A stretch of 64,000 nucleotides of DNA, taken from positions 124,001 to 188,000 of the forward strand of contig WFMF01000266.1 of NCBI GenBank assembly GCA_011033025.1. The letters are read 5' to 3'. Origin of the DNA: Beroe forskalii (Eukaryota > Ctenophora > Nuda > Beroida > Beroidae). Of this stretch, positions 2,793 to 63,799 are shown one piece after another. Under the pieces are notes generated by a model. That model did no database searches, was not told the DNA's origin, and saw nothing but the letters and a program-made list of their open reading frames with translations. How positions within the stretch are numbered: the first letter of the stretch is position 1; each line of letters starts with the position of its first letter. A program made the position numbers and the translations under genes.

Positions 2793-4300
2793 ATGATAAT
2801 TGGGAGCAGATTTGGAAAGCCGAGATGTCAAGAACGGGAAATGGTAGAGCCATGATCGAGGTCAGGTTTTGTTGATCTAAAATGGGAAAATGTTATAGGC
2901 TATAAGAGAAGTTCTGGTGACGTCATTTTCACGTCACTATGACGTCATCAACTTAGCGAAATTTTATTGCTTTTTTTAGTGAAAATAGGTCATTTTCGAG
3001 CGCATTTTTCACCAAGAAGGAATGGAGATAGCTCAGAAATTTTGAAAAATCGTTAGTTGGAAATTTAAAGAGCTTTCAGAAAATCATACGGATCATTGGG
3101 CTATCTCGATTTTTCATCGAGATATACGCGATTTTCTAAGGTACGGTGAAACATCGATTTCCAAATTATAGGTCAAAGCTGAAACGAGTGAGAAGTACCA
3201 AGTATCTTGAGATGAGACCGGTCAAAGTATGTTCTACTAAGGTGGAATTGCTTAATAGGCTAAATGGGAAATTGGTTTGAGTCTATTTTGGTGCTGTGAT
3301 GACGTCATCAAAATCGCGTAAAACCACTAAAATAACGTATTTTGCGATAAAACGCTATTTTGCACTACTTTGGACATCTCCAACTCAAAGAGTTCTCATC
3401 GGATTATGTTTTACTTTGATCTGCTGCTTTTAGACCTTGAGATTTAGCTATAAAATGAGTTTCAGGGTGATCGGCCGAAAAATGTTGTCATGAGAGGCCT
3501 CTGGATATGGAGCTGCAAAATGCTTGAAATAACGTTTATGACGAAAATTTGTACTGTAGTCCTATTCTGTGGTACGATGGTCAACTGATAATGATTTCTA
3601 CATGTCTCGAAGTGAATTGGGATGGAAAATATACGATGGACTAGTGAAGCACGTGAGTTCACGCGGACGTTTTGTAGAAATTAGGGGATTCGAAGAAATT
3701 GATATTTAAACGGGATTTTCGACTTGATTACGGTGAAATGAGTTCAAATACGACTAATGTACGTGAAATTAGATCTGGTTGCTATATTTCAGCACGTGAG
3801 TACACACGGACGTTTTGTAGAAATTAGGGGATTTGAAGAAATTGATATTTACACGGGATTTTCGACTCGGTTACGTTGAAATGAGTTCAAATACGACTAA
3901 TGCACGTGAAATTAAATCTTGTTGCTATATTTCAGCACGTGAGTTCACGTGGACGATTTGTAGAAATTAAGAAATATATCAATTCTAGCAATTCCAGGTT
4001 AGAATAACGTAGTTTTGGACTTCGTCAGGGTGAGTTACGTGGGTCAGACTTGCTGGGAGCTAGTAACGTGGGTTCAGACTACGTGAGGGCAATTTACGTG
4101 GGTCCAAATTGCCTTTGGGCAAGTAACATGGGTTCAAACTACATCTGTCAAGATATCACCACCAAAACCGTTGGACGGTTGGTCTAGTAACCCCCCGCGG
4201 GTTTGGATGTGACAACGGAACCTGAAAAGAGACAAAATGGGCTGATCACATCCAAACCAGCGGGGGGTTACTAGACCAACCGTCCAACGGTTTTGGTGGT
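2793..4300 (+). repeat. Interspersed repeat R1, copy 1 (terminal hairpin 4158-4300)
   Basis: This ~1.5 kb non-coding repeat is also present at 4334-5946 and 56312-57836. It begins after an AT-repeat at GATAATTGGGAGC, contains several TGACGTCATCA motifs, and in its second half has ~144 bp subrepeats starting near 3650, 3795 and 3940 (GCACGTGAGT...TTTTGTAGAAATTA). It ends in a large palindrome with arms of about 50 bp (ACCACCAAAACCGTTGGACG...) around a ~50 bp loop. It could be a non-autonomous transposon; no transposase ORF is visible. Confidence 0.75.
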
Positions 4301-4333
4301 TAGCATAAGATATAAGATTAATAATATATAATA

Positions 4334-5946
4334 TCATGATAATTGGGAGCAAACTTGGAAAGCCGAGATGTCAAGAACGGGAAATGGTAGAGCCATGATC
4401 GAGGTCAGGTTTTGTTGATCTAAGATAGGAAAATGTTATAGGCTATAAGAGAAGTTCTGGTGACGTCATTATCAAGTCACTATGACGTCATCAACTTAGC
4501 AAAATTTTATTTCTTTTTTAGGTCATTTTTGTGCGCATTTTTCACCAAGAAGGAATGGAGATAGCTCAAAAATTTTGAAAAATCGTTAGTTGGAAATTTA
4601 AAGAGCTTTCAGAAAATCATACGGATCATCGGGCTATCTCGATTTTTCATCGAGATATACGCGATTTTCTAAGGTACGGTGAATAATCGATTTCCAAATT
4701 ATAGGTCAAAACTGAAACGAGTGAGATGTACCAAGTATCTTGAGATGAGACCGGTCAAAGTATGTTCTACTAAGGCGGAATTGCTTAATAGGCTATATGG
4801 GAAATTGGTTTGAGCCTATTTTGGTGCTGTGATGACGTCATCAAAATCGTGTAAAACCACTAAAATAACGTATTTTATGATAAACGCTATTTTGCACTGC
4901 TTTGAACATCTCTAACTCAGAGTGTTTTCATCGGATAATGTTTTACGTCGATATTTTGCTTTTAAACCTCGAGATTTAGCTATAAAAATAGTTTCAAGGT
5001 GATCGGTCGAAAAATGTCGTCATGTGAAGCCTCTAAAAATTGATATGCAAAATGCTCGAAATTACGTTTATGACGAAAATTTGTTATTTAGTCCTATTCT
5101 GTGATACGATGGTCAACTGATAATGGTTATTCTATGTCTCACAATGAATAGGGATGGGAAATATACGATGAACTAGTGGAGCACGTGAGTTCACGGACGT
5201 TTTGTAGAAATTAGGGACGGAAGAAATTGATATTTACACGGATTTTCGACTTGATTACGTTGAAATGAGTTCAAATACGACTAATGCACATGAAATAAGA
5301 TGCATGTGCTATACTTCAAGAGCGAGTACACACGGACGTTTTGTAGAAATTAGAGATTTAAAGAAATTGATGTTTACACGTACTTTTCGACTTGATTATG
5401 TTGAAATGAGTTCAAATACAAATAATGCACGTGAAATTAGATCTAGTTGCTATATTTAAGCACGTGAGTTCCGCGTGGACGATTTGTAGAAATTAGGGAG
5501 TTAAAGAAATTGATATTTACACGATTTTCGACTTGTTACGTTGAAATGAGTTCAAATACGACTAATGCACGTGAAATTAGATCTGGTTGCTATATTTCAG
5601 CACTTGAGTACACACGGACGTTTTGTAGAAATTATGACATATATCAATTCTAGTATTCTTAGTTTTGGACTCCCTCAGGGTGATTTATGTAGACTTGCGT
5701 GTGGGCTAGTAACGAGGGTTCGGACTACGTGAGGGCAAGTTACGTGGGTCCAAACTGCCTTTGGGCAAGTAACATGGGTTCAAACTACATACATCTGTCA
5801 AGATAATCACCACCAAAACCGTTGGACGGTTGGTCTAGTAACCCCCATGGTGAATGACAACGGAACCTGAAAAAGAGACAAAATGGGCTGATCACATCCA
5901 AACCAGCGGGGGGTTACTAGACCAACCGTCCAACGGTTTTGGTGGT
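4334..5946 (+). repeat. Interspersed repeat R1, copy 2 (terminal hairpin ~5809-5946)
   Basis: Direct tandem neighbour of copy 1, alignable over its whole length. It has four ~144 bp subrepeats (near 5181, 5320, 5460, 5600) rather than three. In the terminal hairpin the loop-proximal part of the left arm is degenerate while the outer arm remains paired with the right arm. Only about 33 bp separate the end of copy 1 from the start of copy 2. Confidence 0.75.
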
Positions 5947-7899: not shown

Positions 7900-10800
7900 T
7901 TGACCATAACACAGGCCCCCAAAAAGCAATTAACAGTGAAGGGTCATGGTGGGGTTTATTTTGAAAAAATTTCCATTTTGGGGGGATTGATCCCTTGGGT
8001 CTTATCTTTTTTCAATAAATAGAGGTTTCTTGGCAAAAAAATCCCCGGTTAAGGGTTTTCAAAAAGTTTAATAATAAATACATTTTTATTTTTGGTTTCA
8101 AAAAGGGCCCAAGGCGTTAATTACTTTTTATTCAGTTAAGGTCATTTTTTTTCCTGGGGGAAAAATTTTAATTTTAGCACGCCACTATATATTTTGAATG
8201 TTTCGGTATAAAAATTAGAAAAATTAAGTTCACATTAATTGTTGACCCTAAAGCGAGGGAACTTAGCGGGCTGAGTTTGGAACCTAAAAATTTAAATTTC
8301 CCAAATTTTTTAATTTTATGGGATTTAAAAATGTAGAAAAAAGAATTTTTAAATCAACCCAAATTGAATATATCATAAATTTAGGATTTTAATTGGAATG
8401 ATGGATCACTTTTTTTATTTATTGGGAAAAATTTAAAACTGAAAAAAGATTATTTACTAAAAATTTTTTAATAAAAAAAATCTGATTTCAAAAACTGACA
8501 CAAAAGAATTTTTTTAAATTTCCCCCAAATTAAAAAATTTTAAAAAAATTTATTAAAATTAAAAAAATTAACAAATTTAAAAAATTCAAAAAATTTCTTC
8601 CCAATTTTAATAATGGAAATAAAAAATACATACAATTAAATAGAAAAGAAATTTTTGGGGCCAGCCCAATTGGGCTCATTTTCATAAATTTTACAAAATT
8701 TAATAGAACTAAAAGTTTTGGATTATCTCCCCCAAAATTTTGATGACACATCAAAAAGATAGAAATATCCACCTGAAAAATTTCCTTATATTTTCCCCGA
8801 ACGTTTCATATGTCTAAAGTCCCCCTTGGGACCTTTTTTTAAAACAACCCCCTTTTTTTGTTTTTAAAATTTTTAATAAATTAAATTCTTTTTTTTTTTT
8901 TTAACCCCCAAAGGGGGTTTTAAAGGGCCCATTGAAACAAAGTCAATGGGAAAGTAAAGGTTTCAAAAATTGGTCAGAGATAGACAAGATATCGACTTAT
9001 TAAAAGGGTTTTTCCCTTAAAAGAAAATGGATGCTTTTCCCAATTTAAACCCTTTTTAAAACATCAAAAAGAAAGAGGTGTGGGATTTCCCCAAAAAAAC
9101 TTCCAATTTTTCCAGAAAATTCCGGGATAAAATAGTTTAAAAGGGGAGGCGGAAGGTTATCTTTGACCCCATAACCCAAGTTTTGGGAAAAAAAACCCAA
9201 AGCGGGTTTGAAAGTTAAGGGTTTAAAGGTGGTTCTTTTGATAAATTTAAAATTTCTTTTTTTTGCCAGAGAAAAAAAAAGTCTTTTTGAGGGGGAAAAA
9301 AGTTGGATCATAAAAAAAGTAAGAAAAGGCCCCTTTTCAAATTTGGTTGGGCCAAGCCCCAGTTAAAAGTCCCCCCATTTCCCCAAAAAATTGTTTTCGG
9401 GTTGATTCCACTTTTTTTAACCCAAAAACCCTTTCACAACCTTCGGTATTTCCCGAAAGACTCAATCTGCAGTTTTATCAACACATCTCCCCCAAACATT
9501 TTTGGGGAAAAAGGAATTTTTTGTCTTTATGTTTTTCATCATGGGGGAAAAAGAAAAATTTTGTTAGACTTCCCCGTTGACCCTTTGGGGGGCAATGCAA
9601 AAAATTCAAAGCGACCCGGTTTGCATCAGGCATTTTGGAAAAAAAACAAAGGTCCTTTTTTAAATTGTCTGTCAAAATGCTGCTAATTAGAAGTTTTGGC
9701 AAAAAAGATTGTACTTTTTCTTCAAAAGGACTAAAAAAAAACCCCAAAGTCCCCCATTTTGCCAAAACGGGGGATAAAAGGGTCCCCAACCCCCCAACTT
9801 TCATTTTTAAAAATTAATATTTAAAAAAAGAAAAGGGGGTGAACCCACATTTGGAAAAGTTATTTTTGATCGAGTTTTAAAAATTTTTATCCCCTCCCTT
9901 CGGGAGTCACATTCATGAAAAAAAATTTTTAAACTCATGCATATAAAAATAGCAATACATGACCCGGGAATTGAGGCAAAAGGAATTTTGATTTTCCCCA
10001 TCTTCCCTTTTAAAGGGAAAAAAAAACGAATTATTACATTTTCTTGCTATCTTGACCTTTTTGTTTTTGAAAGGTTTTACCTTTTCCCAACACCCTTGGA
10101 ATCAACCATTTGCTTGAGGAAGGTAATTAATATTTTTTTCCCCGGAATTTCACCTCCTTGAACTTAAACTTTAAAAAAATTTTAAATGTTGATAAATTTG
10201 TTTGTTTTAACTTTTTGAAATCTTCAATAACATTTGGGCTTTAAAATTGGGGGGAAATTCCCGGGCCCCAATTAAGCCCTAATTTTTTGGGGTCCTGTAC
10301 TGGGATATTTTTTGTTTTTTTGTTAAAAAGGCCTAATTTTCCCCAAAAGACAATGCCCCAAGCAATTTGGCAATTAAAAAATTTAAATTTAACCCCAATT
10401 AGTTTACCCACGTATAACCTGCCCCTTTTGAGCCCAATAAACCCTTTAAAAAACACAATTATCTATTTTAAACTATAAGGGAAATTTTCCCACATTTAAC
10501 AAAAACCCAATGAAAAAAACCCAAAATTTAAATGACGATTTATTTTTTTGGGATGTGAAGGTTGATGATTCCTCCCCCCAAAAATTTCAAGTCTTTTTGG
10601 GGGAAATTGTAGCCCCAAAATACCATAAAAAAAACAAAAAAAAAGCCAAGACCCCAAAATTTTGGGGTGGGGCTTTTTTTTTTGGGGGTTGGGAATTTCC
10701 CCCTTTTGGGACTTTTCCAAAATTTTTAATTTTTTATTTACATGTTCTTACCCTCTATTGATACCTCAAGGGTTTTCCCAAATTTCCAGATGGCTTGAAT

Positions 10801-13540
10801 AAATATTTTAAAATAAAAAGCTTTTAAAAGAGCCTCAGTGTTTTTGGATAAGGCAATGGAAAATCTAGAAAAGCGGGGGATTTTGGCCCAAAGGATTGGG
10901 GGAAACAGTAAAAAAAATCAAATGTTTTAAATGGGGCCCATAAGGTCTAAACAAAGGGGGCTCTGGCCACTGATTTCCCAGTGGGGATTAGTAAAGCCCA
11001 ATGGTACTTAAAAAGGGTCGTCCTTGTTTCAAAAAGGGCCGGTGATGAAAGGGCCGAAAGAGTCAGGGTGAAGTCTTCAGGGAATTTGCCCAGTGTCCCC
11101 AAAGGGGGTCAGAGAAGTGTTGCGGGGGAAAAATTTGGGAGTCACGGGGAAAAGGAAAACCCAACAGCACGGGGTAAAGGGTCGGTTTTGAAGGTAAAAG
11201 TTGGGCCCCAATTTCTTTTGTTTTTAATTATGATTGACAACGGTCCCCTGAAATTAAAACCTTTGTCCCATTTAAAGATTAAGGCTTCACCCGGCAAGGT
11301 TTGTTTAAATGTTGCGGATATGATATTTTTTCAGGGGCACAAGGAAAGGGGCAAGGGACAGGCAAGTGCCCCCAGTTTTTAATTAATGTTGATAAAAGGG
11401 TCCTACGGGCCTGTAAGTCATAAATGAGTTTAACACTGGAAAAGTGAGTCTAAAAAGGACCCAAGGGGTCTGTTAATTTGGGTTTTCTTTAAGAGGTTAT
11501 TGGGCCAAAAAGATCACGTCAGAATACAAATTGGGTTTTTGATCAGCAAAGAGTCAGAAAAATACCAGCTGGGTCAAAAAAAGTGTTGCCCAGGTTTAGG
11601 CAAAAATAAGGAGACCCCCAGTGTCATGTAGGATAAAGGAGACATCACAATCAGGTAGAATTGGGGGAGGCCGGTGGGATAGGAGAAGGAGAATGCCAGT
11701 CCCCAAATGGGCCGGGGGGGACAGTCCAGATGCCAGTGGGTAAAGGGGGGGATGGGGAACGGCCAGTCCAGGGGAAAAACCCTTTTAGGCGAGAGGGGCC
11801 GACAACCAACCCACGTTTTTTGGGCCCCAAAGCCCAAAAAAACCAATTTTCATTGTTAGCATTAAATTTGGGCAATTTACTCTCCCCAAATTTTTAAAAA
11901 AGCCCCCAATGAACCGTGATTATTAACAAAATTATTTCATTGTGTTTAAAATTTAAAACTTCATTTATGCCCGGGGAAGTAAAATCATCCAAAACCAAAA
12001 GTTAAAATTTTTAGATCTGCCCCCAAGCCCTCAGAGCTTTTTTTAAACAAAAACTTGTGAAACTTTAAAGACCTAAAAGGGTGGGTTTTTTACTTTGTGG
12101 TTTTTTAACCATACTTTAATTATTTGTAATATTTGGACCGGGAGAAACCCAGGGGAAGTCTCGTTCAAAAAAGTTCGTTTTGATGGGGCCACGCAGCCCC
12201 CAAAAAGCTAAAAAACCCACGTGATATTTTTGGTCCCCCTCGACCAAAAATAAATTACAGGTAAAACCTTATCTTTTCGCTGGTCTCAGCTGGCTCGAGC
12301 CCAACAAAAATTTTACAATATTCATTTAATTTTTATAACGAGAAGGATCGATGTTTTTTGGGTGGTTTCTTTTCGGGTCATAAAATGGACTGCCCAAATA
12401 AAAAAAAGCACAATTTTTCAAACGTCCATCCCAAAGCGATTGTCGGGTTTTTTCATTTGTTTCCAATTCTGACTGAACACCAGGTGCCTAAAAATTTTTT
12501 TCCCTTTGGTAGATGAACGTTCAAAGATTATAAATTTTTTTTTAAAATTTTTTATTATTAAAAAAAACTGTTTGAAACACAAAAATAAAGTTTTAAAAAA
12601 CCAAATTTTTTTTTAAAACGGGGGCCAATTTTTTTTCAAAATTTTTTTCCCTCTGGTAGTTTTTTTGGTTTTAAGATTCAAAAGAAATTTTAATTTTTCC
12701 CGGTTCACAAGAAATATTCAGTGGATAAAAAATCTTTTTCCCTTTGGCCCCATGATTTAAATATATTTTTAAATTGCAAATTCTTTTTCTTAAATAAAAA
12801 CCCCATGAAATTTTCAAAATTTTAAGGGAAGCAATGAAAAGGGTTGCAAAAAGGAAATTTTTATTTTCCAAACACTTTTCTAAAATTGGGCCCAAATTGA
12901 TTTTTTCCTTTTTTTTTTTTTTATAAAAATGTTTTTAAACATGTTTAAAATTTGTTAGTTAAACCAACTGTTTGGAAACAAAAAGGAAAAATATTAAAAA
13001 AAAGGCCCCTTCCTCTAAAAATTGGATCGATATTTCCCAAATTCCTTTTTTCCTTTCCGGGAAGGTTGGTTCAAACAGCCTTCGTTTTCCAAAAAAAGCC
13101 CCAGGGGGAAAAGTTGTAAAAAACAAATTTTTTAAATGTTGACAAATTACGGGAAAATTGATTTGGGGGAAAATTGGGAAAAACCCCATTAAAATTTTTG
13201 CCGGGCTGGGACAAATTAGGAAAAATTGATTTTTGAAAACAGAGGGGAAATACCATAATTTTTAAGGCCTGGGCCGGGGCCGGCGATAAAATTATCCCAA
13301 CCAAAGACCCTTAAAATTCAAAAAAAATTTTGGGAAAAAAAAACCCAAAAAATTTTTCGCCTCCTTGAATTTTTAAAATTATCGGGGAGGTTTATGGTTA
13401 GGGGGTCAGGTGGGATAAAGGGAAAATTTGGCAAAAGGGAAGTCAAACACAGTTTTGGGAAGGGATGCCTTTGTGTTTTTATTAAGTGAAAAAAAGCAAG
13501 TTTCTAGGTTCATTAGTTGGATCATGGGGGAAGTTCATTT
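7900..13540. other. Degraded, homopolymer-smeared stretch of copy A (probable assembly artefact)
   Basis: This stretch aligns collinearly to about 21190-29140 of copy B, but individual bases are replaced by neighbouring ones so that runs such as CCCC, AAAAAA, GGGG and TTTTTTT abound. Both flanks are 90-99 percent identical to copy B and the change is abrupt. The pattern is not the transition bias expected of deamination or repeat-induced mutation. It looks like a low-quality consensus. Open frames here are unreliable and are not annotated. Confidence 0.75.
8670..10001 (-). pseudogene. Unreadable copy A counterpart of the copy B multi-unit gene
   Basis: Fragments match the minus-strand gene at 22016-25087 in order: the ATG region near 10000, the middle near 9350-9800, and the 3' part near 8670-8870. 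Multiple frame breaks follow the smeared base calls. The site where copy B carries the 1612 bp element (near 8850) is uninterrupted here: sequence corresponding to GGACCTTCTTTTGGC runs straight into the counterpart of AACATTGATTTC. Whether the locus is truly broken or merely badly sequenced cannot be told from this sequence. Confidence 0.55.
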
Positions 13541-14871
13541 TTTCATCTGAGAAAACCAGGTCGCACCTAAAGAGTCAGCCAAGGTCACTGCTAGTCACAT
13601 ATGATTCCCCTGTGTCAGGTTAGGGTCCGTAGGACTTAGGCAAGGAATCAGGATAAGCTATGGGTTACCATGGGATCAAATAAAAAGGCTTGTGAGGGAA
13701 GAAGTCAGGTAAGGGCAAGCAAGGCTACAGATATTCGCTTACTCAGTTGTTATCAAGGGACAGCACGGAATAAGCCAATGGTCATGGGCAAAATGGCACC
13801 ACAGAACATGTCCAATATTAGCCTCCATTCACCTCAATTAGGCGCTGTGGAGGCTAAGTGGAGACGGTGGTGACTGGGTGGTGGCTGGAGTGGAGGCTAA
13901 TTTGGAGGATTGGCCTCTATGGAGTCTAAGGATTGCCTGAGGCTAATTTTTGAAGAAAAGCCTCCACTATGGTAATTGATTGTTCACATATCACATGTTG
14001 CTTGCCGTGCTGTTTGATATACATACACTGTATAACGTATTAACGTATAATGCTATATATTTTTAGTTGATATTTTTTAGTTGATATTTTTTAGTTGATA
14101 TTTTTATTTTATTTTATAATTGATACTTATTTCATTTATTTTAAATTATTTTAGATTATTATTATCAGGATATCAAATTTAATTATGTTATTTTAGAGAA
14201 TGATGTAAAGGGGATCGTCGTGCACATAAAGATGTCTTAACCCTGCCGAAGCCAGTCGGTAGCCTGGATATTATGATTTCTCTACAAAACTAAGCCTTTT
14301 ACTGCTTATAATCACCTAGGGGGAGGGGGGAGTTTTCAAATGATTACATTTGATTATGGGGAGGGGGTTTGGTAGTTGATTAATGTAATCAAAATTAATG
14401 TAATCAAAATTTACAATTTTTGACAATTTTTGCCACAAATTCTCCGTATTTTTAACAAAAATTTCAGAAAACCAACTCAAAAGCACCATTTTCAGCACCA
14501 TTTTTCAAACTTACCTCAATATTTTCATAAATTTTTCCAAAGTTGAAAAATAATCAATTTTAAAGTGTTTACACTGTCCATTTTCTTCATTTTCTACTCA
14601 AAAAGGTGGGGGGGTAAAGCCATGATTACATAATATTCCCCTAACCAGGGGCGTCGCAAAACTCCGTGCACGTAACCAGGGTCCTGGTTAGGGCAATTCT
14701 CCTCAAGAGGGGGGTTGGGCTTTGATTACGTTTGATTAGGAGGGGAGGGGGGCTGAAAATGGTCAAAAATTGATTACGTAATATGTGAATGATCCCTAAC
14801 TAATTAGCCTCCATTAGCCTCTACCAAGCATCCACTCAGCTTCCATGGTTCCTAAAATTTTGCTTAGCCTC
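13541..14871. other. Non-coding part of copy A, nearly identical to 29140-30170
   Basis: No gene is seen. It contains GCCTCCA/GGAGGC-rich sequence (13820-13970), a ~320 bp segment absent from copy B (13993-14305) with three tandem TTTTTTAGTTGATA units near 14061-14105, and G-rich runs (CCTAGGGGGAGGGGGG) separated by TTGATTACATTTGATTA motifs. The high identity to copy B contrasts with the smeared sequence immediately upstream. Confidence 0.6.
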
Positions 14872-17800
14872 TACTGCTGATAAGCCAACAGTACATTATG
14901 ACTATTGTGAAACTCATATCATTGAATTCAACACAAAACTCACTCAAAAACTGTCCACAGATGATTTTAGTGCTGATGAAACAGGTTTTGCCAAATTTAT
15001 TGAATGCATAAACAATACTATAGATGAGTGCTTCAAAGTTAGCTCACAATCACTTAAAGTCTCTAAGCGTAATAGGATTGAGAATCCATGGATAACTAAT
15101 GGTCTCATCAATTCAATTAACTACAAAAATTTTCTGTATGAAAAATGGAGAAAGAATAAAACAAAGAAAAATGGGATAGACAATTCTGAAGTCTATGAAA
15201 AATACAAAAAATATCGTAAGAAATTAAGATCTTTAATTAAATCTGCTAAAAGTAGGTTTTATTCCAAAAAGTTTGACAACTGCAAAGGTAGTAGTAAAAA
15301 AACTTGGGAACTGATAAACCAGCTGAGGGGAAAAGATATATCAAAATCTAAGTGCTCCTTTCTTGTTAATGGAGACTTGGTACAGAATAGAAGAATTATT
15401 GCAAATGAATTCAATAGATATTTTGCATCCGTAGCACAAGACCTCAATGAAAATGCTTTAAGATCTGAAAACCTCCCAATATCCCCCATTCCTGACTTTT
15501 CAAATTATATTGGAAGGAGGGTTAATGATAGCTTATTCTTTGAACCATGCTCAGTATTGGAAATAGAAAACATAATAGATGAGTTGGAGAATGGCAAAGC
15601 AAGTGATATTCCTATAAGAGTTCTTAAAAGTTGCAATTCTATTATAAATCCATACTTGAAAACATTCTATAACACATTTACTGAATTAGGTGTATTTCCA
15701 AATATCTTGAAAATTGGTCAAATTACTCCTGTTTTTAAGAAAGATAATAAACAAATGTTTAAAAACTATAGACCTGTTTCAATGCTCCCTTGCTTTGGGA
15801 AAATATATGAAAAGCTTATATACTCTCGTTTATACAACTTTGTAGTATCAAAAAATATTCTGTATGAAAACCAATATGGTTTTCGAAGTCACCATTCTAC
15901 CTCTCATGCTGTAAACTACTCAATTGATAAAATAACTTTTAACATTGAAAACAAGAACCATGTACTTGGTGTATTTATAGATTTGAGTAAAGCTTTTGAC
16001 ACAATATGCCATGAGAAACTTCTAATAAAATTAGAAAATTATGGAATTAGAGGTACACCTCTAAGTCTCCTAAAAAGTTATTTAACCGATAGAAAACAAC
16101 TTACTAATTATGATTATGTGAAATCTGATTTACTGCCTGTCAAATATGGTGTCCCACAGGGCTCTGTCCTTGGGCCATTGCTTTTCATTCTTTATATCAA
16201 TGATATAGTTAACTGTTCAACACTTGGGCACTTTGTTATGTTTGCAGATGACACTAATATATTTGTAACTGGTAATACTGAGCAGGAGGCATATTCTAAA
16301 GCCAATGAGGTACTAAGAGATGTTAAATTGTATATGTTAAGTAATCAAATGCACATTAATACTGAAAAATGTGTATACATACATTTTAGACCTAGACTCA
16401 ACCACAATGACCAAAAAACTTGTGCTAGAACTAGAGTATCAGGTAGTGACTTAAAGCTTTATTTGAATGGTGACAAAATAAAGAAAACGAATATGGCAAG
16501 ATATCTTGGGATTATAATTGATGAAAATTTGAACTGGGAGGGTCATCTAGAACACATCAAACAAAAATTAAATAGCTCAATTATCACAATCAAAAGATTA
16601 AAGAAATTCATCCCAGAAGAACACTTTAATAAAATCTATCACTCACTCTTCATATCACACTTAACCTATGGTATTTCGTCATGGGGCTCTGTTTCTAATA
16701 ATAAATTGAAACCAATATTTAATGTTCAGAAGAGGTGTATACGTTTACTCTTTGGAAAAAAACTGAATTTTGATCATGCTGAATATTATAAAACATGTGC
16801 CAGAGCTAGATCAATTGATGAACAATTAGCCCCTAAGGATTATGTACTAGAGCATACTAAGCCTTTGTTCACTGAATTAAAATTATTAACTGTTCATAAT
16901 TTACATAAACTTTTCTTACTTAATGAAATTTTCAAAATTAAGAAATATAGATACCCTATTCCCTTGTACACACTACTGAAAAATTCCCCTGAATCAATAA
17001 GAAGTTGTCTAAGGAATAATATAGTTGTTCCCGGTTATAAACTTGAAACATCTAGACAACAATTTTTGTTTAGCGGCTCCACTGTATGGAATAACTTTAA
17101 CTGCAAAATGGCTCAGCTGGGTTTACAATTTCTTTCAGACCTATCTACATCCTGCTGTGTTGTCAAAAATAAATTCAAAAAATTTCTTTTGGATGTTCAG
17201 TCATCGGGACATCCTGAACTTTGGGAAGACCATAACCATAATTTTTAACTGTGGTAATGCTAACAAAACTCAAATGGGCAAGTGAACTAGTTATTATTAG
17301 TATCATTTGAAATGATTGATTTATAAGTATTACTACTTCTTCCTCAGCAGCTCTTACAAACAACAACCAAAAATACATTATGTCATTGTGTAATGGATGA
17401 TGACTAATAGGCAGATATTAATTTTCATAAACTAGATGAGAGCTATAGGGACATAACTGGGCAACCTCATTCCAATGATCACTCATACAATGATAACTCA
17501 GCTAGGGTGTTATTTTCTTCTGATAAATGATTAATAGGAGATAATGATGAGAAATTCTGGGTAATTTTCCATGTCATAGAAACCTTTAATACTATTTAAT
17601 TGGTTTTTTTATTCTGAAATTTAAATTTAAATTATTTATCTTAAATTATGATTTTAATTTTAATTATTCTATTTATTTCTGACAGCAAATGGTTAAACTT
17701 TATTGCAAACTGTACCTATTTCCTCAAATTGTTAATTTGATTTCCATATTATTGTTGTACCAAAGGTGGTACCCAAGTTACCACAAGTATTTCCTGTAGC

Positions 17801-20324: not shown

Positions 20325-20991
20325 TGCTTAAATATTGTCAAGCGTAAACTTGTTAAAACAATGAAACACAACACTTGATCAAAAGTTCGTGTTAATAATT
20401 ACACTACTAAAGTACTTAAGGTACAAATAACATTAAGAAGGTACTTAAACTGACTATTTATTGGAACTGCAAGTAAATTAACAAAATTTGTGCTAATTTG
20501 ATTGTAAAAGAAATTTGATGATCTCTCTTCACAAAGAGGTATTTAAGTACATATAATGGCGCTAACCAAGCAGCATTTATGTGATATTAACGTCAGGATC
20601 TTATTGGCACCTACTTAATGACTGATCAGTGATTGATTCTTTTGCTTTTGGCTCGGAATTGCACCTATTGAATAGAATTAGAACTGTTTAATTTTAATAC
20701 TGATACAGTGAACATGATCAAAAAAATTATTCTAATAACTTAATAAGAAGATTTGATATTCCTTTTAATAATATTCTAATTTTTTATTTGATGCTATACT
20801 TTTAATTATAATCAAACATAACAATCACACATACTCATATAGCAAGCAAATCAGATTTGAATAACAATTATAAAATAACTTCAAGGAAAATTTAATCGTG
20901 TCATAAAATTCAAGAGAAAACTCAAGCATTAATAAAAACGGCAGACATGAGAAGTTAATTCACTATACATACCCATAAATTGTAAGGCACC

Positions 20992-21199
20992 CGTAACGTT
21001 CGTTGGTCGATCGATCAACTTCATTTGATCAACTGATGTGTTTTAAATAGAAAATCTTTGAGCTAGTAGGGAAACAACTTAATATTGCTCATTTAAACAC
21101 GATTCAAGACATTAGGGACCAGTAAACACATCATTCGTTCAAATGAAGTTGATCGATCGACCAATTCCATTCGATCGACCGACGAACATTATGGGCACC
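20992..21199. repeat. ~0.2 kb inverted-repeat element with GGTCGATCGATCAACTTC arms
   Basis: The left arm (21004-21030) and right arm (21139-21163) are complementary over GGTCGATCGATCAACTTCAT and beyond. Weaker complementarity extends outward through GGCACC and GTTCGT to the ends. A decayed version occurs at about 7700-7910 in copy A. This is probably an old MITE. Confidence 0.55.
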
Positions 21200-22015
21200 T
21201 AAAAAGCAATTAACAGTGAATGGTCATGGTGTGGTTATGGCGTGAATAGTTACAGTTTGGGGATTGATACCAATTGTCAGGTTATCATTTTTCAATAAAT
21301 CCGGTTATGGTTTCGGTTAACCGGGCTAAAAATGCCCGGTTAACAGGTATTTCCCTAAAAGTTTAATCACGAAATCAAAATATTCAGTTACGTCTTCGGT
21401 TTCAATAAGCTGAAAATGTTCAGTTAACTGGTATTTCGGTTTTGGTTCAGTTAACGGGTCATTTCATTTTCCTAGGGAATGCAATTTAATCTTAGCACGC
21501 CACTAGTATATAATTTGAATGTGATTCTGTGATAGAAATTAGAAAATGTAATGTGTTCACATGTAGTATCCTGTTGACCTCTAAAGCGATGGACTTAGCT
21601 GCTGAGTGTTGGGGCACTCAAAATTAATTCCAAATGTTTAATTCATAGGATTTAAGAATGTAGAGCAAATTGAATTTTTAAATCAATCAATAGATATATA
21701 TCATATAATTTATGATTCTTAACTGAATGATCGGATCACTGTTTATTAGTTGCATACTTATACTGATTAATGATGATTATATTATCTGATTTTAATAAAT
21801 AAATCTGATTTCATAAACTGACATCGGGAATATTTTCGGAATTCTACCCCGTCATCAACCTATAAAATATTAAAATTTATTAAAATTAAATAATGTACAA
21901 AAGTTAAAATTCAAGAAATAATTTCATACTAATTAATAATGTGGTAAGGCTATACAAAATACATACAACTAAATAGAAATAGAAATATTTGCTACAGTCT
22001 AATTACGGCTCATTT

Positions 22016-25000
22016 CTACATAAATTTTACAAAATATATGCTATGAACATCTAAAGTTATTGGATTATCTCCTCCAATATATTTTGATGACACATCAGCA
22101 GAGATAGAGACATGCCAGCCATGCTGAGCAGCAACTGCCATCATTTTCCCCAGAACTGCTCTCATATGATACTGACAGTCACCCTTGGACCTTCTTTTGG
22201 CAAACCAAGGACGTCCCATACAGGTGAATGCCTCACAAAATTCCATGCCTCACAAAAGTCCTATCGCATAAAATGTCTGCACAAGAAATTATATCCTACA
22301 TATGAGTAGTTTTTGATCCTGAAACTGTGTTAATGAAAGAACAAAGTAAACTTCCTCAGACCATTTAAGCTTAAATGGTTTTTATTTTACAGGCAATGAC
22401 TCAATAAATACAAATTTTTAGGCCATGAAATTGTTCTGGGTGCCTATCATGATTAATCTGTTGGAGATAAGTCATGAAAAGGGGGTATGATTGAATTGGA
22501 CCCATATAAATAGAACATATAAACGAAGTTTTGAAAATGTGTGATCAAGAACAAGAAAAAAAAGATGAAAAAAAACCATAGCCTCACAAAAGTACCATAC
22601 CATGAAATAGAATTTGGTTGTATTGGCTTTTAGATGTTTTATAAAAAGCATATTGGTCTTGTAGTATGAACTTTCATGACCTATTTATAGTAAATAATCA
22701 TGCTTGAAAATTCAAAATGCCCAGAATATTTTCAAAAAGGACTTTTGTGAGGCATTACACATTTTCAAGCCCACAAAAATATCATGGACTTTCTTTATAA
22801 TGCCTGGAATAGCAAAATTAAGCAAGGTTATTTGATTTTCAGAATATCAGATTAATATCAGCAGCATCAATGCTTCATTGCATCTATAAAAAAGGAACAA
22901 AAATGATTGGACTTTTGTGAGGCAATGAGAGAAATCACCATTTATGCCTCACAAAAGTCCAAACTTTCAAAAAAAAGTTTTGCACGAAAAATAATTTTGC
23001 ATTTGCCAATTCCTTTCTATTAGGCAGATCTTTGGGACAAAAAGGAAGCTAACATAATGGATGGTGACTCAAATAGCTACCATTTATCCAAATTTGACTG
23101 AAAAAATCAATATTTTGTGGGTAGAAATTTTTGTTGAGGCATTTACCGTCAATTTTCTTTGTAAAAGGTTGTAAATACGAAATCTTTTCATAGGTCAATG
23201 AACCTCTTCAAAAATACAATGCAAAATTTGAGGATAAGAAAATTACGCAATTTGTTTAGATAATATAGCCAAATAAAATATTGCCTCACAAAAGTACCAA
23301 TTGATTGCATGAAATTTTTACTCCATTTAGCCATTCAGGTGTTTAAGAAAACCATCTATTACGCAAATTTAACTTATTTAGCATCCTTATAAACAGTAAT
23401 ATAAAGAGATTTATTTTTGATTAAACAAAAATATAGCTTTATTTCAAATCATGGGACTTTTTGTGAGGCATAATTTATTTCAAATCTCCAAAATATGACA
23501 TTAATTTCGTTTGTAAACACCAAAAATGCTTTCAGAATGAAGGCAATTGAATCGAATAACGAGCCTGCATAGTTTCAATTATGTAGCATTTTCATAACAG
23601 AGGAAAAAGAAAGATTTGTCAATGGGACTTTTGTGAGGCATGGTGTAGACCTATAGGTTTTTTAGGACAAAATTTCAAAATGAAAACTCCAATTTTCTCC
23701 ATTTCAATCATCCAGGAAGAAAATTTCAGCTTCTCCTACATCCTTAGAGATGATTAAAAAACAAAATAATAATGAATTAGATGATTTATGGCATGATGAA
23801 AAATAGTGGGACTTTTGTGAGGCAAACACCTGTAACATTGATTTCTAGATTTGAATCAGGTAAATTCTTTTCATTTTTTACACCAAATGGGTAGAATTGG
23901 TACAGGCTGTCTTTCATTGAAACACCAACGTCAATGGGAAAGTCAAGGATTCGAAGCCTGTCAATACTGGTCAGAGATAGACAAGCATATCGGCAGCTTA
24001 TTGGGTATGTATTTTTCCTGAAGAGAATGGATGCTTTGTCAGTTAACCTGCGACTAACATCAATAGCATACAGAGGTGTGTAGCCATGTTGCCCAAAAAC
24101 TTCCATTATCCGAGAAATACTTCTACGTGCTGCAATAGCTTCAGAATCAGAGGAGTGCCAAGGGGTGCCATGGACCTTGATCTCGTGACTGCCATGATAC
24201 TCAAGCTTCTCTTGAATCGAAAAACCTGCAGCAGTAATTGCAGTTTCCAAGGGCTCAAGAAGGTGGTTACCATTGATCAATCTAAATCTGTCCATTTTTG
24301 CCAGAGTTAGCATACAAAAGTCATTTTGATGGGCAGAAAAAGTTGGATCATAAATAAAAAAGTAAGAGTCAGCCGTCCCTTTCAAATTTGTTGAAGCAAG
24401 AAGTCGCCAGTTAAGTCCTCCCATCCTTCCCACCAAATTGCAAATTGCTTTTCGTGTGTTGATTCCATCTTTGTGTGTCCAGCCCCAGAAACCATTCAAC
24501 GTAATTTCATGCAGTATTTCTCCTGAAGACTCAACGTCTGCAGTTTTATCAACACATCTCGGCCAAGCATCTTCGAGAGCAAGCATAACTGCTGTCTTTA
24601 TGTGTTCATCATGGTGTAAAAGAACAAGTTTGTTAGACTTACCCAAGCTTGATCCCCCTGGGGCAATGCAGCAAATTCTAGCTTGACCTCGGTTTGCATC
24701 AGGTACTTCACTTTTAGCAAAAAACAAAGTGGCTTTGTCTAATTGTCTGTCTAAATCGCTGCTAATTAGAAGATTATAGCCAAGATTGTACATTTCTTCT
24801 AGCAGACGTAAAACAAAAAACTTTCCAAGAGTAGCCCTATCTTTGCCAGCACGAGGATAAAATGTACGCCAATCCCCAACTTTCATCTTTAGTGTACCAT
24901 AGTATTCAAAAAGTGGCCCACGGGTGAACCCACATTTGGCAGTTATTTCTTGATCGAGTCTAACAAGCATATCTCTCACCTCTGGAGTCACATTCATGAC

Positions 25001-25087
25001 CCTTATCTTTGAACTCATACATATGGAAATAGCAATACATGAGTCTGGAATTGAGGCAACAGCGAACTTTGATGATTGGTCCCCCAT
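22016..25087 (-). CDS. Unrecognised protein of about four related domain units, interrupted by a 1612 bp element
   Basis: The minus-strand frame starts at ATG 25087 and stays open for over 415 codons before entering the inserted element at 23832. Beyond it the frame resumes at 22218 and stops at 22016-22018. Without the element and one TA copy the coding length is 1458 nt (485 residues), exactly in frame. The protein consists of diverged units of ~110 residues starting near residues 64, 192, 301 and 413. Shared features are an opening like HEIKVHGTPW (HEITLNG, EINVMGRPW), an Arg-containing helix with HG[WY] or LGY, then a D.S/D.D motif followed by DK and a hydrophobic [IL][LF]F strand. I cannot name the family. 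No signal peptide or membrane segment is evident, and function is unknown. The ATG directly follows AG, so an upstream exon is possible. The element may disrupt the gene or be spliced out. Confidence 0.6.
22221..23832. mobile_element. 1612 bp inverted-repeat element with ten GCCTCACAAAAGT motifs, TA target duplication
   Basis: The ends CAGGTG-AAT-GCCTCACAAAA and TTTTGTGAGGC-AAA-CACCTG are inverted and flanked by TA (22219-22220, 23833-23834). The 13-nt motif GCCTCACAAAAGT or its complement occurs at 22247, 22581, 22741(-), 22911(-), 22946, 23283, 23628(-) and 23811(-), with one-base variants at 22230 and 23456(-). Copy A has the empty site near 8850. No transposase ORF is visible, so it is non-autonomous. 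Such distributed motifs resemble subterminal transposase-binding sites, which is inference. Confidence 0.82.
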
Positions 25088-27604
25088 CTTACCTTTAAGA
25101 AAATAAACGAATTATTACACTTCTTGCTATCTTGACCTTTATTTGATTTTGAAAGGTTTTACTTCTATTCCAACAGCCATACGGCAATCAAGCCAGTGAC
25201 GGTTGAGGAAGTGTAATTAATATTTTATTTGCCGGAGACTTCACTGCCCGAGACTTAAACGTTTAATAAAAATGGCCCAATGTTGATGAATTGCTCGTGC
25301 ACTGGCTGTTAACTTAGTTGCACATCTTACAATAACACTGGCTTTAACAAATTGAGGGGATTCACAGGCCCTAAGCTAATAGGGTCCTGTACTAGGATAT
25401 CTTTTGATTTTGTTAAGAAGGCCTAACTTTACCTAACATGACAATGATACCCTAAGCTTAATTAATAAATTAATTAATCTAACTTAGTTATACCCACGGT
25501 ATAACCTGCTCCTTTTTGTGAGCCCAATGAACTATTCCCAACACAATTATCTACTTTCAACTATAATGCAATTTCGCATGTTAACAAATAACCTAATGAA
25601 ATAAACCTAAGCTTAAACTAGACGATTTATTTTCTTATATAGATGTGCAGCTATGATGATTCCTCCCTAATCCTCAAAAATTTCAACGTCATTATTCTGG
25701 GGGGATTGTAGCTCAAAAAATACCATAAAACAAAAACAAAAAAACAAGCCCAAGATCCCAAATTTAGGGTGAGGCTTGTTTTTTTTGGTTGGATTTTCTG
25801 AACTTTTTGGACATTTCACACCAATTTTTTATTTGTGTTATTTACATGTTCTTATTCCCCTTATTGATACTCAATGGTTTCCAATTACAGATGGCTTGAA
25901 TCACTATTTTGAGGAAATAATTAGCATTTAAAGAGCTCTCAGTGCTTTTTGATAAGGTACAATGGAAAATCATGAGATAGCATGGGACCTTGGTCCAACA
26001 GTGATTGGAGAGGAACAGTAAAGAATCAAATGTTGTCGAATGAGGCCATACTGGTCTAAACAAGAGGGCTCTGGCCACTGATTACCACGTAGGGATTAGT
26101 CAAGACCCAATGGTACTTCAAAAGGTCGTCCTTGATTCACCAGGGGCCGGATGACGAAGGGCCAGATAAGAGTCAGGGTGAAGTCTTCATGAGGAGGTCA
26201 GACTAGTGTCACCAGAGGGTCAGAGAAGTGTTGCAGGGAGTCAACTGGGAGTCACAAGGGGGCAAGAAAGGACCAACACAGCACCAGGTGAAGGTCGCCA
26301 GATGAAGGTCAGCTAGTTGAGAGCAATTTAGCATTCTTGCTTTAATTATGATTGACAACGGTCAGCCACAATAATCGCCAGAAGACCAGTTTGTAGGCAC
26401 TTAGTCACCAAGCAATGATTAAGGCTTCATCAGTCAGCAAGGCTTGATTACTGATGCTAAGCATATCTTTCACGAGGTCACAAGGTAATCTGTGTTGCTA
26501 AGGGACAGGCAAGTGCCACCAGCTTCTTGTGAGAGTCGACATGTTGATGAAATGTGTCCTACTGTCCTGTGAAGTCATAAATGAGTAATTAACACTGGGA
26601 GAAGTGAGTCTGAAAAGGATACTGCCAAGGGTCTGTTCAGACTCTGGTTCTTGTAAGAGGTTATTCGGCCAGAAGATCACGTCAGAATCACTAGTGGGTT
26701 ACTTGATCAGCTAAGAGTCAGCCAGACAAGAAGTACCAGCTGGGTCATAAGATAAGTGTTGTCACCAGTGGTTTTGGCAAGATAAGGAGACACCAGTAAG
26801 TCATGTAGGATCAGGAGACATCACTAGGTCAGGTAGAATTAGGAGGCTCAGGTAGGATCAGGAGAATAGGAGATGCCAGTCTCCAATGGGTCAGGTAGGA
26901 TCAGTCCAGATGCCAGTAGGTCAGGTAGGATCAGGAGACGCCAGTAGCCCAGTGACAGAACCCTAGCGAGCGAGAGAGCGTCGCTCGACAACCAACAGCC
27001 ACGTTTGTGGCGACCCAAACGTCCAAACGACCGAATTTTCATTGAAATTAGCATTGAAGTTGGCAATTTACTACTCACGATACTGTAAAAAAGCCGCCAA
27101 ATTGTAACCGTGACTTATAATAACTAAGTATTTCATTGTGTTTGACAATTGTACAGCTTCATTTATGTCGTGGAGAGTAAGAATCATCCTGACAAAAGTC
27201 TGTAGTACATTTACGATGACTGCCTCAAGCCCTCAGAGCTGTATTGTACCGCAAAACTTGTGATAACGTACTCTAAAGATCTATAAAAATGCGTGGGATA
27301 TTTACTTGTGTTTGAAATAGACTTGTATTAACCATACGTTAATTATTTGTAATATTTGAGCACGTGGAGAAACTCCAGAGTAGTCTCGTTCAAATGTAAG
27401 TTCGATTGATAGAGGCACACGCAGCTCTAAAATGTGCTGGTCGTCAGAAAAAAGCTGAAAAAGCTACGCTCGATATTGGTGGTCGTCACGCTCGACGACC
27501 ACAATACAATTACAGGTAAAATCTCATCCTACCCTCGCTGGTCGTCAGCTGCGCTCGACGACCAGCGAAATAAATAATTACAATATTCACTGTGTACACT
27601 GTTT
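25088..27604. other. Non-coding part of copy B with a GTCAGGTAGGATCAGGAGA minisatellite
   Basis: No gene is supported. 26780-26960 and 28948-29030 contain repeats of CCAGTAGGTCAGGTAGGATC and shorter variants. 27480-27565 has complementary TGGTCGTC...GACGACCA segments around CGCTCG. The remainder is AT-rich sequence without an open frame that shows splice support. Confidence 0.5.
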
Positions 27605-27807
27605 TGGCTATAACTTGAGAACGGATCGATGTTTTTTTAGGTGGTTTCATCGTTCTGCGTCGATCAAATGGACTGACCAAATGAAAAATGCGCGCAATAC
27701 ACTTTTACGAAGACGTCCGCGCAAAAAAGCAAGCGCGAGCGATTGTCTGCGTTTTTCATTTGATCAGTTCATTCGATCGACGTGCAACGATGCAGGTGCC
27801 TCAAAAT

Positions 27808-28495
27808 TCTTTTTTCCTCTGGTAGATGAACGATTTACAAAGATTATAAATATGCTTGAATATGTTTATTATTAATAACAAACTGTTGAAACACAAGGAA
27901 ATATTAAGTTTACGAAAATCCAAGTTTTAGCTATAACATTGCATCTGGGCAATATTTTTTCAAAATTCTTTTCCCTCTGGTAGATGTTTGTGTTGCGAAG
28001 ATTCTAAACGTGCTTAAATGTGTTGATTATTAAGCGGTTGAAACACAAGGAAATATTCAGTTGATGAAAAAATCTAGTTTTGGCTATAACATTGCACTCG
28101 ATCGATATATATTTATATATTTATTACGTAAATTCTTTTTTCTCTAGTTGATAAATAATCCATGAAATTTTTCATAATGCTTCAGAGGCTAAGTAGCAAT
28201 GAAAAGCGGTTGAAACACAAGGAAATTTTTAGTTTCTAAAAGCTTACTTTTGGCTGAAACATTGCGGCTGATTGATATTTTTCCTTAATTCTTTTTTCCT
28301 TTGATAGATGAATGTTTTTAAACATGCTTAAATAAGTTGAGTTATGCCAACCAACTGTTGAAACACAAGGAAATATTAAATTCATGAAAAAGTAAGTCTT
28401 GGCTCTAACACCTCGTTTGATCGATATTTCTTCCAAATTCTTTTTTCCTCTGGAAGATGAACGTTCTAAACATGCCTTGATGTGTTCCAAACAAT
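27808..28495 (+). repeat. ~155 bp tandem satellite, about five units
   Basis: Units begin near 27808, 27960, 28132, 28290 and 28436. Each has ATTCTTTTTTCCTCTGGTAG, then AACATGCTTAAAT, then GTTGAAACACAAGGAAATAT, then TTGGCTATAACATTGC and TCGATCGATAT. The smeared counterpart is at about 12340-13190 in copy A. Confidence 0.7.
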
Positions 28496-28497
28496 TT

Positions 28498-28866
28498 TCA
28501 GCTGTGGCGGGCTGTTGTGATCAAAATGTTTCTAAATCGATTTAGAGGCAGATTACTGAATTGATTTGGTGGCAGATTCAGATAGGAAATACCATAAAAT
28601 TTTTCGCCTGCGGCGGGCTGTTGTGATCAAATTATACATTAGCAAATTGATCTTAGAGGCAGATTCAGATGGGAAATACCATGAAATTTTTCGCCTGCGG
28701 CGGGCTGTTGTGATAAAATTATACATTACCAAATTGATCCTAGATTCAGATGGGAAATACCATAAAATTTTTCGCCTGCGGCGGGCTGTTGTGATCAAAT
28801 TATACATTACCAAATTGATCTTAGAGGCAGATTCAGATGGAAAATACCATAAAATTTTTCGACAGA
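28498..28866 (+). repeat. 80-90 bp tandem repeat, four units
   Basis: The sequence TTTTTCGCCTGCGGCGGGCT followed by GTTGTGATCAAATTATACAT recurs near 28601, 28691 and 28771, with a partial first unit at 28498. Both strands are open across the array because the unit lacks stops, giving spurious repetitive ORFs. Confidence 0.75.
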
Positions 28867-29060
28867 TAAATAATTCTGGAAACGGTGGCGACCAAATTGA
28901 GTAGTGAAAGTCTGCGCTTGACGACCCACAGGAGGTATTCTGTCACTGGGGCCAGTAGGTCAGGTAGGATCAGGAGGTGCCAGTTATAGGTCAGGTAGGA
29001 TCAGGAGACACCAGTACACAGGAAGTCAGTACACAGTATGGGAAGTGGATGCTCTTAATG

Positions 29061-31198
29061 TGTTGTTATTAAGTGAGCCAGCAAGTTTCTCAGGGCTCAC
29101 TAGTTGGATCATGACTGGTTAAGTTCAGCCTATTTTCATCTGAGATACACATGGTGGCTTGCACCTAAAGAGTCAGCCAAGGGTCACCAAGTAGTCACAT
29201 ATGATTCCCCTGTGTCAGGTTAGGGTCCGCAGGACTTAGGCAAGGAATCAGGATAAGCTATGGGTTACCATGGGATCAAAAGGCTTGTGAGGGAAGAAGT
29301 CAGGTAAGGGCAAGCAAGGCTACAGATATTCGCTTACTCAGTTGTTATCAAGGGACAGCACGGAATAAGCCAATGGTCATGGGCAAAATGGCACCACAGG
29401 AACATGTCCAATATTAGCCTCCATTCACCTCAATTAGGCGCTGTGGAGGCTAAGTGGAGACTTGGTGGTGACTGGGTGGTGGCTGGGTGGAGGCTAATTT
29501 GGAGGATTGGCCTCTATGGAGTCTAAGGATTGCCTGAGGCTAATTTTTGAAGAAAAGCCTCCACTATGGTAATTGATTGTTCACATATTACATAATCACC
29601 TAGGGGGAGGGGGGAGTTTTCAAATGATTACATTTGATTATGGGGAGGGGGTTTGGTAGTTGATTAATGTAATCAAAATTAATGTAATCAAAATTTACAA
29701 TTTTTGACACAATTTTTGCCACAAATTCTCCGTATTTTTAACAAAAATTTCAGAAAACCAACTCAAAAGCACCATTTTTCAGCACCATTTTTAAAACTTA
29801 CCTCAATATTTTCATAAATTTTTCCAAAGTTGAAAAATAATCAATTTTAAAGTGTTTACACTGTCCATTTTCTTCATTTTCTACTCAAAAAGGTGGGGGG
29901 GGGTAAAGCCATGATTACATAATATTCCCCTAACCAGGGGCGTCGCAAAACTCCGTGCACGTAACCAGGGTCCTGGTTAGGGCAATTCTCCTCAAGAGGG
30001 GGGTTGGGCTTTGATTACGTTTGATTAGGAGGGGGAGGGGGGGGCTGAAAATGGTCAAAAATTGATTACGTAATATGTGAATGATCCCTAACTAATTAGC
30101 CTCCATTAGCCTCTACCAAGCATCCACTCAGCTTCCATGGTTCCTAAAATTTTGCTTAGCCTCTGCTAGCCTCAACTGATGAAACAGAAGATGAAACAGA
30201 AGAAGTCATTGTTATTGTTTTGGAGACTCAAGCATTAATATGGAGGCTAATAGAAGGTATGTGGAAGCTAAATGTAGGCCAAAATATAACAAAATTTGTC
30301 TCTGAAACCAGCAAATGTGGCCAAATTTGAAAAACCAGTAGATAGATTTAAAATCTCAGTCAGACAGTCAGATCCCAATATCCTTCACTCAGTCTCAATT
30401 AGCAACGGCTTGGCCTCCATTAGCAACTATTCAGACTTCATTCAGACATTTTAACAACCATTCAGCCTCAATAAGCCACAACTTAGCCTCTTTGTTTACT
30501 TGTTAGCAACCACTCAGCAACCATTAGTGGTTATGCCATTCTCATAATTCTTTTTTCTTGCTTAATTTTATCCATCCATGATCCCACCCACTGTCCCAGG
30601 GATGTGATTAAGCTGACAAGGCGAGAGCATCCTTTAGCTGCAGTGAAGTGTGTCACCCAAAAGTTGAAACTATCAAAATAATATAATACTGAACTGGGAT
30701 TGCCTGAATTATTGGTTTACTTAAGCCAACAAGGCATCTCTTGCATACTGAATAAGTACCATAGACACCTAGGCCTAAACTAGGATCAGTCGATTAAGAA
30801 ATCAAGATCTCAGATCAATTATCCTACCCTGAAGCCTGAAACAACTACTCAATTTTCCTTCTTTTTTTTTTTTTTTTTTTTTTTTTCCTTGCTATCCTCC
30901 CAAAACCTCCAAACCATCCTCAGATTAATACCCAGATTAATCTCAACCCTGTATTAACTTAGCAAACCAACAATTTTGCTATTCAGTTAATCTGCAAGGC
31001 TGAGTCCTTTCAGTAAAAATATCTCTATCTGTACTATATCTGTACTCTTGAAGTTCTTGAAATTTCTGTTTAAAAAGGGTGCCATTGAAAATGATATTTG
31101 AAATTTCATACCAGATTTATTTATTACTGTGTTTTTCAATAAAGAAATTCTGTAAGCTATAAAGATTAATCTTTGTTTCACTAATCTTTGTTTCACTA
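29061..31198. other. Non-coding right part of copy B
   Basis: Counterpart of 13541-14871 and 18220-19081. No gene is seen. It has the same G-rich and TTGATTACATTTGATTA blocks, a long T-run near 30860 and an AATAAA-bearing stretch near 31138. The ~160 bp at 30165-30330 replaces the copy A retrotransposon. Confidence 0.55.

Positions 31199-32930: not shown

Positions 32931-63799
<30,869 letters not shown>

Follow-up and report, generated by a model that had tools for sequence, protein, structure and literature searches.

A probably pogo-like, non-autonomous DNA transposon that inserts at TA and carries a motif array along its length, and a coding relative, in the genome of Beroe forskalii

The window analysed here is a stretch of 64,000 nucleotides of the Beroe forskalii genome (C321:124001-188000), and the genome searched comprises 216 Mb in 1134 contigs. 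On the minus strand of the window, an open reading frame is interrupted by an insertion of 1612 bp located at 22221-23832: the 5' part of the host frame, which ends with EINV, occupies 23835-25087 with its ATG at 25087, and the 3' part, which begins with MGRPW, occupies 22019-22218. The insertion is directly flanked by a TA on the left (22219-22220) and on the right (23833-23834). Deletion of the insertion together with one TA results in a frame of 493 codons from stop to stop, 485 of them counted from the ATG, that runs across the EINV/MGRPW junction. A preliminary description of this DNA, made from its letters alone, had proposed that a mobile element lies within a coding region and that its removal restores a frame of 485 codons, and both points are borne out. 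The 5' part of the host frame has no Pfam match up to E=1; over 22019-25087 (minus strand) the frame shows internal repeats, with EIxxxGxPW recurring (self-match with E=3e-4). Elsewhere in the window, a 623-codon frame at 15377-17248 (plus strand) resembles a LINE reverse transcriptase and several successive frames at 47974-61007 resemble seven-helix receptor genes, both read by eye, while 143-bp tandem repeats are located at 54558-55488 and 3671-5622.

The host region is part of a block that is duplicated within the contig (7269-14875 versus 20548-30167). Copy A, at 8186-10308, is a low-quality duplicate of the host region that has no element and thus represents an empty site: it aligns with the insertion site at 70% and has no 1.6-kb insert. 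In the empty-site searches, for which the flanks of an insertion were joined with a single TA (400 bases; 40 matches scored per search), copy A was the sole other place found for the window copy, at 70% over bases 1-358 of 400. To the right of copy A, the duplicated block matches copy B at 98% (14308-14875) and, just before that, at 91% (13438-13996), while identity falls to 70-74% in the body of the duplication. Within the block 9226-13054, homopolymers of at least 4 bases make up 36% of the bases versus 9% in the copy B partner, and 235 of the 271 gaps are only 1-3 bases long. The simplest account of copy A is a second haplotype, or a duplicate, that was badly assembled. The empty site described earlier in copy A stands in part, as the absence of the 1.6-kb insert is believable, while the sequence is poor and its base-level detail is not to be relied upon.

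The insertion is bounded by terminal inverted repeats (TIRs) of 24 bp (CAGGTG...CACCTG), the left one with the sequence CAGGTGAATGCCTCACAAAATTCC at 22221-22244 (plus strand) and the right one at 23809-23832 (minus strand). With the flanking TA counted in, the inverted arms (22219-22244 and 23809-23834) are 88% complementary. The inner part of the terminal repeat is a motif that is best written as the 16-bp TGCCTCACAAAAGTCC, and the remaining copies of this motif lie inside the element in mixed orientation. Motif 1 (22229-22244, one mismatch) and motif 10 (23809-23824) are contained in the left and right TIR, respectively. Between them are found motif 2 (22246-22261, plus), motif 3 (22580-22595, plus), which is a GTAC variant, motif 4 (22739-22754, minus), the left and right halves of a central inverted pair formed by motif 5 (22909-22924, minus) and motif 6 (22945-22960, plus), motif 7 (23282-23297, plus), again a GTAC variant, motif 8 (23455-23470, minus), with one mismatch in the window copy, and motif 9 (23625-23640, minus). 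The window copy has eight exact 13-mers and two with one mismatch, so that the ten 13-nt motifs in both orientations listed in the preliminary description, as well as its CAGGTG/CACCTG ends and TA duplication, are all present. The majority sequence derived from 20 full-length copies has TGCCTCACAAAAGTCC exactly at seven sites and with one mismatch at three, and 60 mononucleotide shuffles contained no site at up to three mismatches. The genome-wide count, made with the 13-mer, gave 247 occurrences versus 19 for the reversed control. Copies of the family described below account for 96 of the 100 places listed and the other four are on C25, C185, C207 and C249, so the motif is not widespread elsewhere. 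No structural RNA was found by Rfam at the gathering threshold in 22000-24100.

The insertion is one copy of a dispersed non-autonomous DNA transposon family (family A), for which the genome contains 42 matches, some of them pieces of one copy. The 20 full-length copies aligned have a mean pairwise identity of 94.5% (88-99%), and the nearest relative of the window copy, on C110, is 99% identical. Within the family the ten motifs are 97-100% conserved versus a mean of 96% over all columns. The pattern of TA plus TIR (up to two mismatches) has 57 hits in the genome, 53 of them exact, versus one for the reversed control. TA directly flanks both ends in 23 of the 24 copies examined, a number that includes the coding relative as well as four split copies, each treated as a whole (L028 re-joined as L047, L031 as L045, L036/L038 as L040 and L037 as L046); the one exception, L018, lacks the first TIR base. 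This count leaves aside L024, L027, L030, L032, L034 and L035, which are truncated, degraded or at contig ends, as well as fragments on C392, C1025, C1087 (second), C336 and C294. Beyond the fixed TA, no strong target consensus was seen at the 24 copies. The copy on C208 (L040) is split by approximately 3.8 kb with repetitive frames, probably a nested insertion, and repeats with a period of approximately 143 bp adjoin the family A copy on C110 (L010:3553-4557).

Empty sites were found for two further insertions, that of L016 and that of the coding relative on C581, both located in frames that resemble LINE reverse transcriptase when read by eye. The joined flanks of the C581 insertion gave unbroken 400-base matches on C469 (99%), C1 (97%), C1024 (98%) and C698 (94% and 93%), and those of L016 gave unbroken matches on C592 (98%), C299 (97%) and C228 (97%). 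The other matches among the 40 scored per search were mostly at 74-92%.

The coding relative, of the kind the preliminary description had suggested looking for, is a 4121-bp element at C581:736807-740927 (L039:2808-6928), which has the same TIR as family A, TA flanks, and nine motifs, divided into groups of five and four by an open frame of 833 codons on the minus strand. This frame is transposase-like, with a weak match to the Pfam domain DDE_1 (E=1.7e-4, 21.6 bits versus a curated cut-off of 22), and is not among the 22 matches of a genome-wide DDE_1 search. Residues D230, D347 and D383 are invariant across the C581 frame and three other open frames of the same genome that are 20-28% identical and whose loci score 94-97 bits to DDE_1; the 35 residues between D347 and D383 correspond to a DD35D spacing, and the three residues are predicted to be catalytic. 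Among the six matches listed for the protein, one is full-length and represents its own frame. More distant relatives are open frames on C396, C872 and C714 and a fragment on C845. In the N-terminal 204 residues Pfam recognised no helix-turn-helix domain up to E=10, nor a CENP-B_N, BrkDBD or HTH_Tnp_Tc5 domain. No relatives were found in the PDB up to E=1, and of seven pattern matches to viral relatives of the transposase none was confirmed. In alignments with family A the C581 element is 77-78% identical over the columns that align (gap columns: 254 and 133), and it gives no match to the centre of family A; being diverged and lacking this match, it is not the direct parent of family A.

With regard to its classification, C581 possesses the TA duplication and TIR of at most 40 bp as well as the D-D-D triad with DD29-56 spacing that are used to recognise pogo elements. 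Since no N-terminal DNA-binding domain was recognised, we describe it as pogo-like and stop short of assigning it full membership of the pogo superfamily. The TIRs of pogo elements often begin with CAG. In the excerpts of the literature used here, pogo elements range from 1.2 to 5.2 kb and their proteins from 300 to 977 aa (PMC7386202, PMC9976928), DD35D spacing is reported for Passer-type pogo elements (PMC9976928) as well as for some pogo groups (PMC7325037), and intact Passer elements measure 1.6-4.0 kb with proteins of 400-500 aa. The likeness to pogo thus comprises the TA duplication, the short TIR and a DDE_1-like protein with DD35D, and the 4.1 kb and 833 aa of C581 are within the pogo ranges, although it is larger than intact Passer elements. 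Unlike pogo, C581 has no detected HTH_Tnp_Tc5 or CENP-B_N domain, and it has a Cys-rich stretch and a long C-terminal region. The motif array of family A and C581 runs throughout the element, and the pogo descriptions mention no such array in the parts used here; no pogo or Tc1/mariner element with a whole-length motif array was found in the literature searches made here, as judged by titles and the beginnings of abstracts.

The function of the motif was approached through the comparison of family A with C581, which share four motif-to-motif intervals of 318/318, 157/155, 154/153 and 168/168 bp. The spacers between these motifs have an ungapped identity of 53, 32, 42 and 57% (75-78% when gapped), and the motifs at their ends are retained, including a common GTAC variant at two sites; the variant of motif 3 is found in C581 at the same distance (334 bp). 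The correspondence is incomplete in the left arm of C581, which has an additional site and whose site near motif 4 is 8 bp off and oppositely oriented. Because interval lengths and motifs are kept while the spacers have diverged, and because the motif lies inside the TIR, the simplest reading is that of a transposase-binding site, which on these comparisons is the most likely function of the motif. We consider it quite probable that the window element is a non-autonomous, TA-duplicating cut-and-paste element, that it is mobilised in trans by a transposase such as that of C581, pogo-like and of the DDE (DD35D) type, which would recognise the 16-bp motif, and that the inner copies are extra binding sites. 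Cutting would occur at the terminal repeats, each with one recognition site, and the inner sites, present about every 175 bp, may serve to load the transposase or to form loops with it, in the manner of an extended IR/DR.

Several known systems carry additional motif copies, and those compared here have their extra transposase-binding sites close to the ends. Sleeping Beauty produces a TA duplication and has DRs approximately 165 bp apart. Its IR/DR contains repeated transposase-binding sites inside the ends, all four of which are needed for transposition according to the part of the source used (PMC7827188), and by analogy the inner sites of family A may aid synapsis. Family A resembles Sleeping Beauty in having repeated, here putative, sites inside its ends, and differs in that Sleeping Beauty has two sites per end, while in family A ten sites are spread along the full length, some of them paired as doublets and with both orientations represented. 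En/Spm (CACTA) and hAT elements also carry many short motif copies in both orientations near their ends; these subterminal repeats, unlike the whole-length array of family A, cluster in the few hundred bp at each end, and the elements produce duplications of 3 bp or 8 bp and use other transposases.

Foldback elements, to which the insertion had been likened in the preliminary description, have inverted repeats and no coding capacity, as does family A, and are recognised by long terminal inverted repeats built of short tandem repeats. We reject a Foldback identity: the TIRs are approximately 24 bp (arms of 26 nt with the TA), there are no long repetitive inverted arms, the motifs are dispersed in mixed orientation, and the element duplicates TA and shares its ends with a TA-inserting element that codes for a DDE_1-like protein. 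The insertion is real and its nature largely resolved: it is a pogo-like DNA transposon that is non-autonomous, inserts at TA and has a coding relative elsewhere in this genome.

The spacing of the motifs is regular. With doublets merged, the gaps in family A are 342, 159, 189, 355, 173, 170 and 184 bp, and the best period is 175 bp (R=0.97), which was matched by none of 4000 random placements of the same span and number of sites for each of two minimum gaps; in all period tests doublets closer than 60 bp were merged beforehand, and the tests were made after the regularity had been noticed. A second non-autonomous family, family B, was met at the pogo-like relative on C396, where a family B copy (C396:43702-48868; L065, L060, L063 and L066) is interrupted by a nested pogo-like element. 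This nested element has a 733-codon frame and a perfect 22-bp TIR that is distinct to it, and its own motif is present in a few copies that form no grid. Family B is 1598 bp in length, has the TIR TATGTCCAATTCCACG and carries the motif CGTTACGTAATTCACA nine times (up to two mismatches). Of the 76 matches to its right 1309 bp, 32 are short ones of 30 bases and 23 extend over 1300 bases or more with 96-100% identity, and its TIR pattern has 105 hits, some representing a one-base TIR variant, versus none for the control. TATATGTCCAAATCCACG, which differs from the family B end by one base, occurs at many listed places and suggests another related family. At C447:691176-694281 two family B ends are separated by 3.1 kb and a DDE_1 fragment lies immediately internal to one of them; this could be a coding relative of family B or a nested insertion.

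Families A and B have no homology beyond short words (best E 0.026). The merged gaps of family B, read on one copy, are 164, 340, 332, 199 and 177 bp with a best period of 173 bp; the chance level for this one copy is 0.002-0.006 at 174 bp, a value near the best period of family A, and 0.018-0.058 with the period left free. Phasing of base composition at 174.5 bp outside the motifs is weak in family A (p=0.037) and absent in family B (p=0.28), so that the sequence evidence for positioned nucleosomes is not convincing. A third array at C872:48980-50099, with the motif GGGTAAAGTGGGACA, has a best period of 158.5 bp (p 0.001-0.014), or 158 bp for seven hand-read sites (p 0.017-0.076). Its standing as a further grid is doubtful, as it is probably composite: C872:49439-50126 is a dispersed repeat of approximately 690 bp with 39 other matches among the 40 scored, at 74-76% identity. 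For the frame that adjoins this array the best TIR-like pairs match at just 16 of 22 bases, and 5' of the frame its motif is absent from 45500 on.

An origin of the array other than selection on binding sites would be that the inner motifs are relics of an old satellite-like tandem repeat that became enclosed by the ends of a transposon. The motif spacing is near the size of a satellite monomer, the same genome contains 143-bp tandem repeats, and the spacers score slightly above shuffles in every comparison (mean local scores of 14.2 and 13.8 versus 12.6 and 12.0 in family A, and of 12.0 and 12.6 versus 11.3 and 11.4 in family B). This excess, however, is small and may stem from bases beside the motif; as the spacers are barely more alike than shuffles, recent tandem duplication does not account for the grid. 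Given further that the motifs occur in both orientations and are kept while the spacers diverge, we regard a captured satellite as unlikely. Slightly less likely still is that the array is a platform for a host protein, such as a domesticated CENP-B-like protein, a zinc-finger protein or a repressor, with the terminal copies alone serving transposition; against it stand the near confinement of the motif to the elements (the 96 of 100 listed places given above) and its being part of the TIR itself. What speaks for such a platform is that CENPB, a domesticated transposase of pogo origin (PMC7386202), is described in the parts of the sources used as acting on 17-bp boxes in monomers of approximately 171 bp, usually in every other one (PMC8997354); the gaps of family A near 170 and 335 bp resemble these steps of a short site, often alternate, for a transposase-derived protein. 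As a system for comparison, CENP-B boxes differ from family A in lying in satellite arrays and not in a mobile element, and the family A motif is unrelated to the box sequence.

It had also been suggested that the element could act as an intron, which would make it an introner-like transposon that carries splice signals, is removed from the host mRNA and leaves the host gene functional. The TIR does supply a donor-like CAG/GTG end, an acceptor-like GTGAG/GC motif is present near the other end, and eight donor/acceptor pairs keep the frame, four of them without a stop, including ACAG/GTGTTT paired with an AG that lies 28 bases from the end. The part of the literature used describes introners that have TIRs and duplications, among them one that adds residues to a protein (PMC9860276). 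An in-frame splice pair would nevertheless be expected by chance about once in three cases, the 16 bases preceding the candidate AGs have a pyrimidine content of 44-62%, and the copies are not concentrated in genes: among 24 restored sites the window copy alone is in a long frame without resemblance to a LINE, L016 and L039 sit in frames that resemble reverse transcriptase when read by eye, and the 21 others are in no frame of more than 185 codons. An intron-like role is thus not supported, and we judge it very improbable, well behind the captured satellite and the host platform.

What is unusual in the transposon reading preferred here is that the presumed binding sites are placed at nucleosome-sized steps along the whole element, with hints of a similar layout in the unrelated family B. 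Tentatively, and at considerably lower confidence than mobilisation in trans by a C581-like transposase, at least two unrelated transposon families might carry their own motif once per nucleosome repeat (approximately 173-175 bp, often skipping a step, with doublets 14-36 bp apart), such that the sites would have a fixed phase in a nucleosome array and the transposase, or a CENP-B-like derivative, would assemble on chromatin and not on naked ends. The coding relative with its open frame makes the binding question directly testable. If true, the arrangement would allow the influence of chromatin spacing on transposon architecture to be tested in a natural setting, and would be relevant to the question of how CENP-B and other transposase-derived proteins came to act on arrays of approximately 171 bp.
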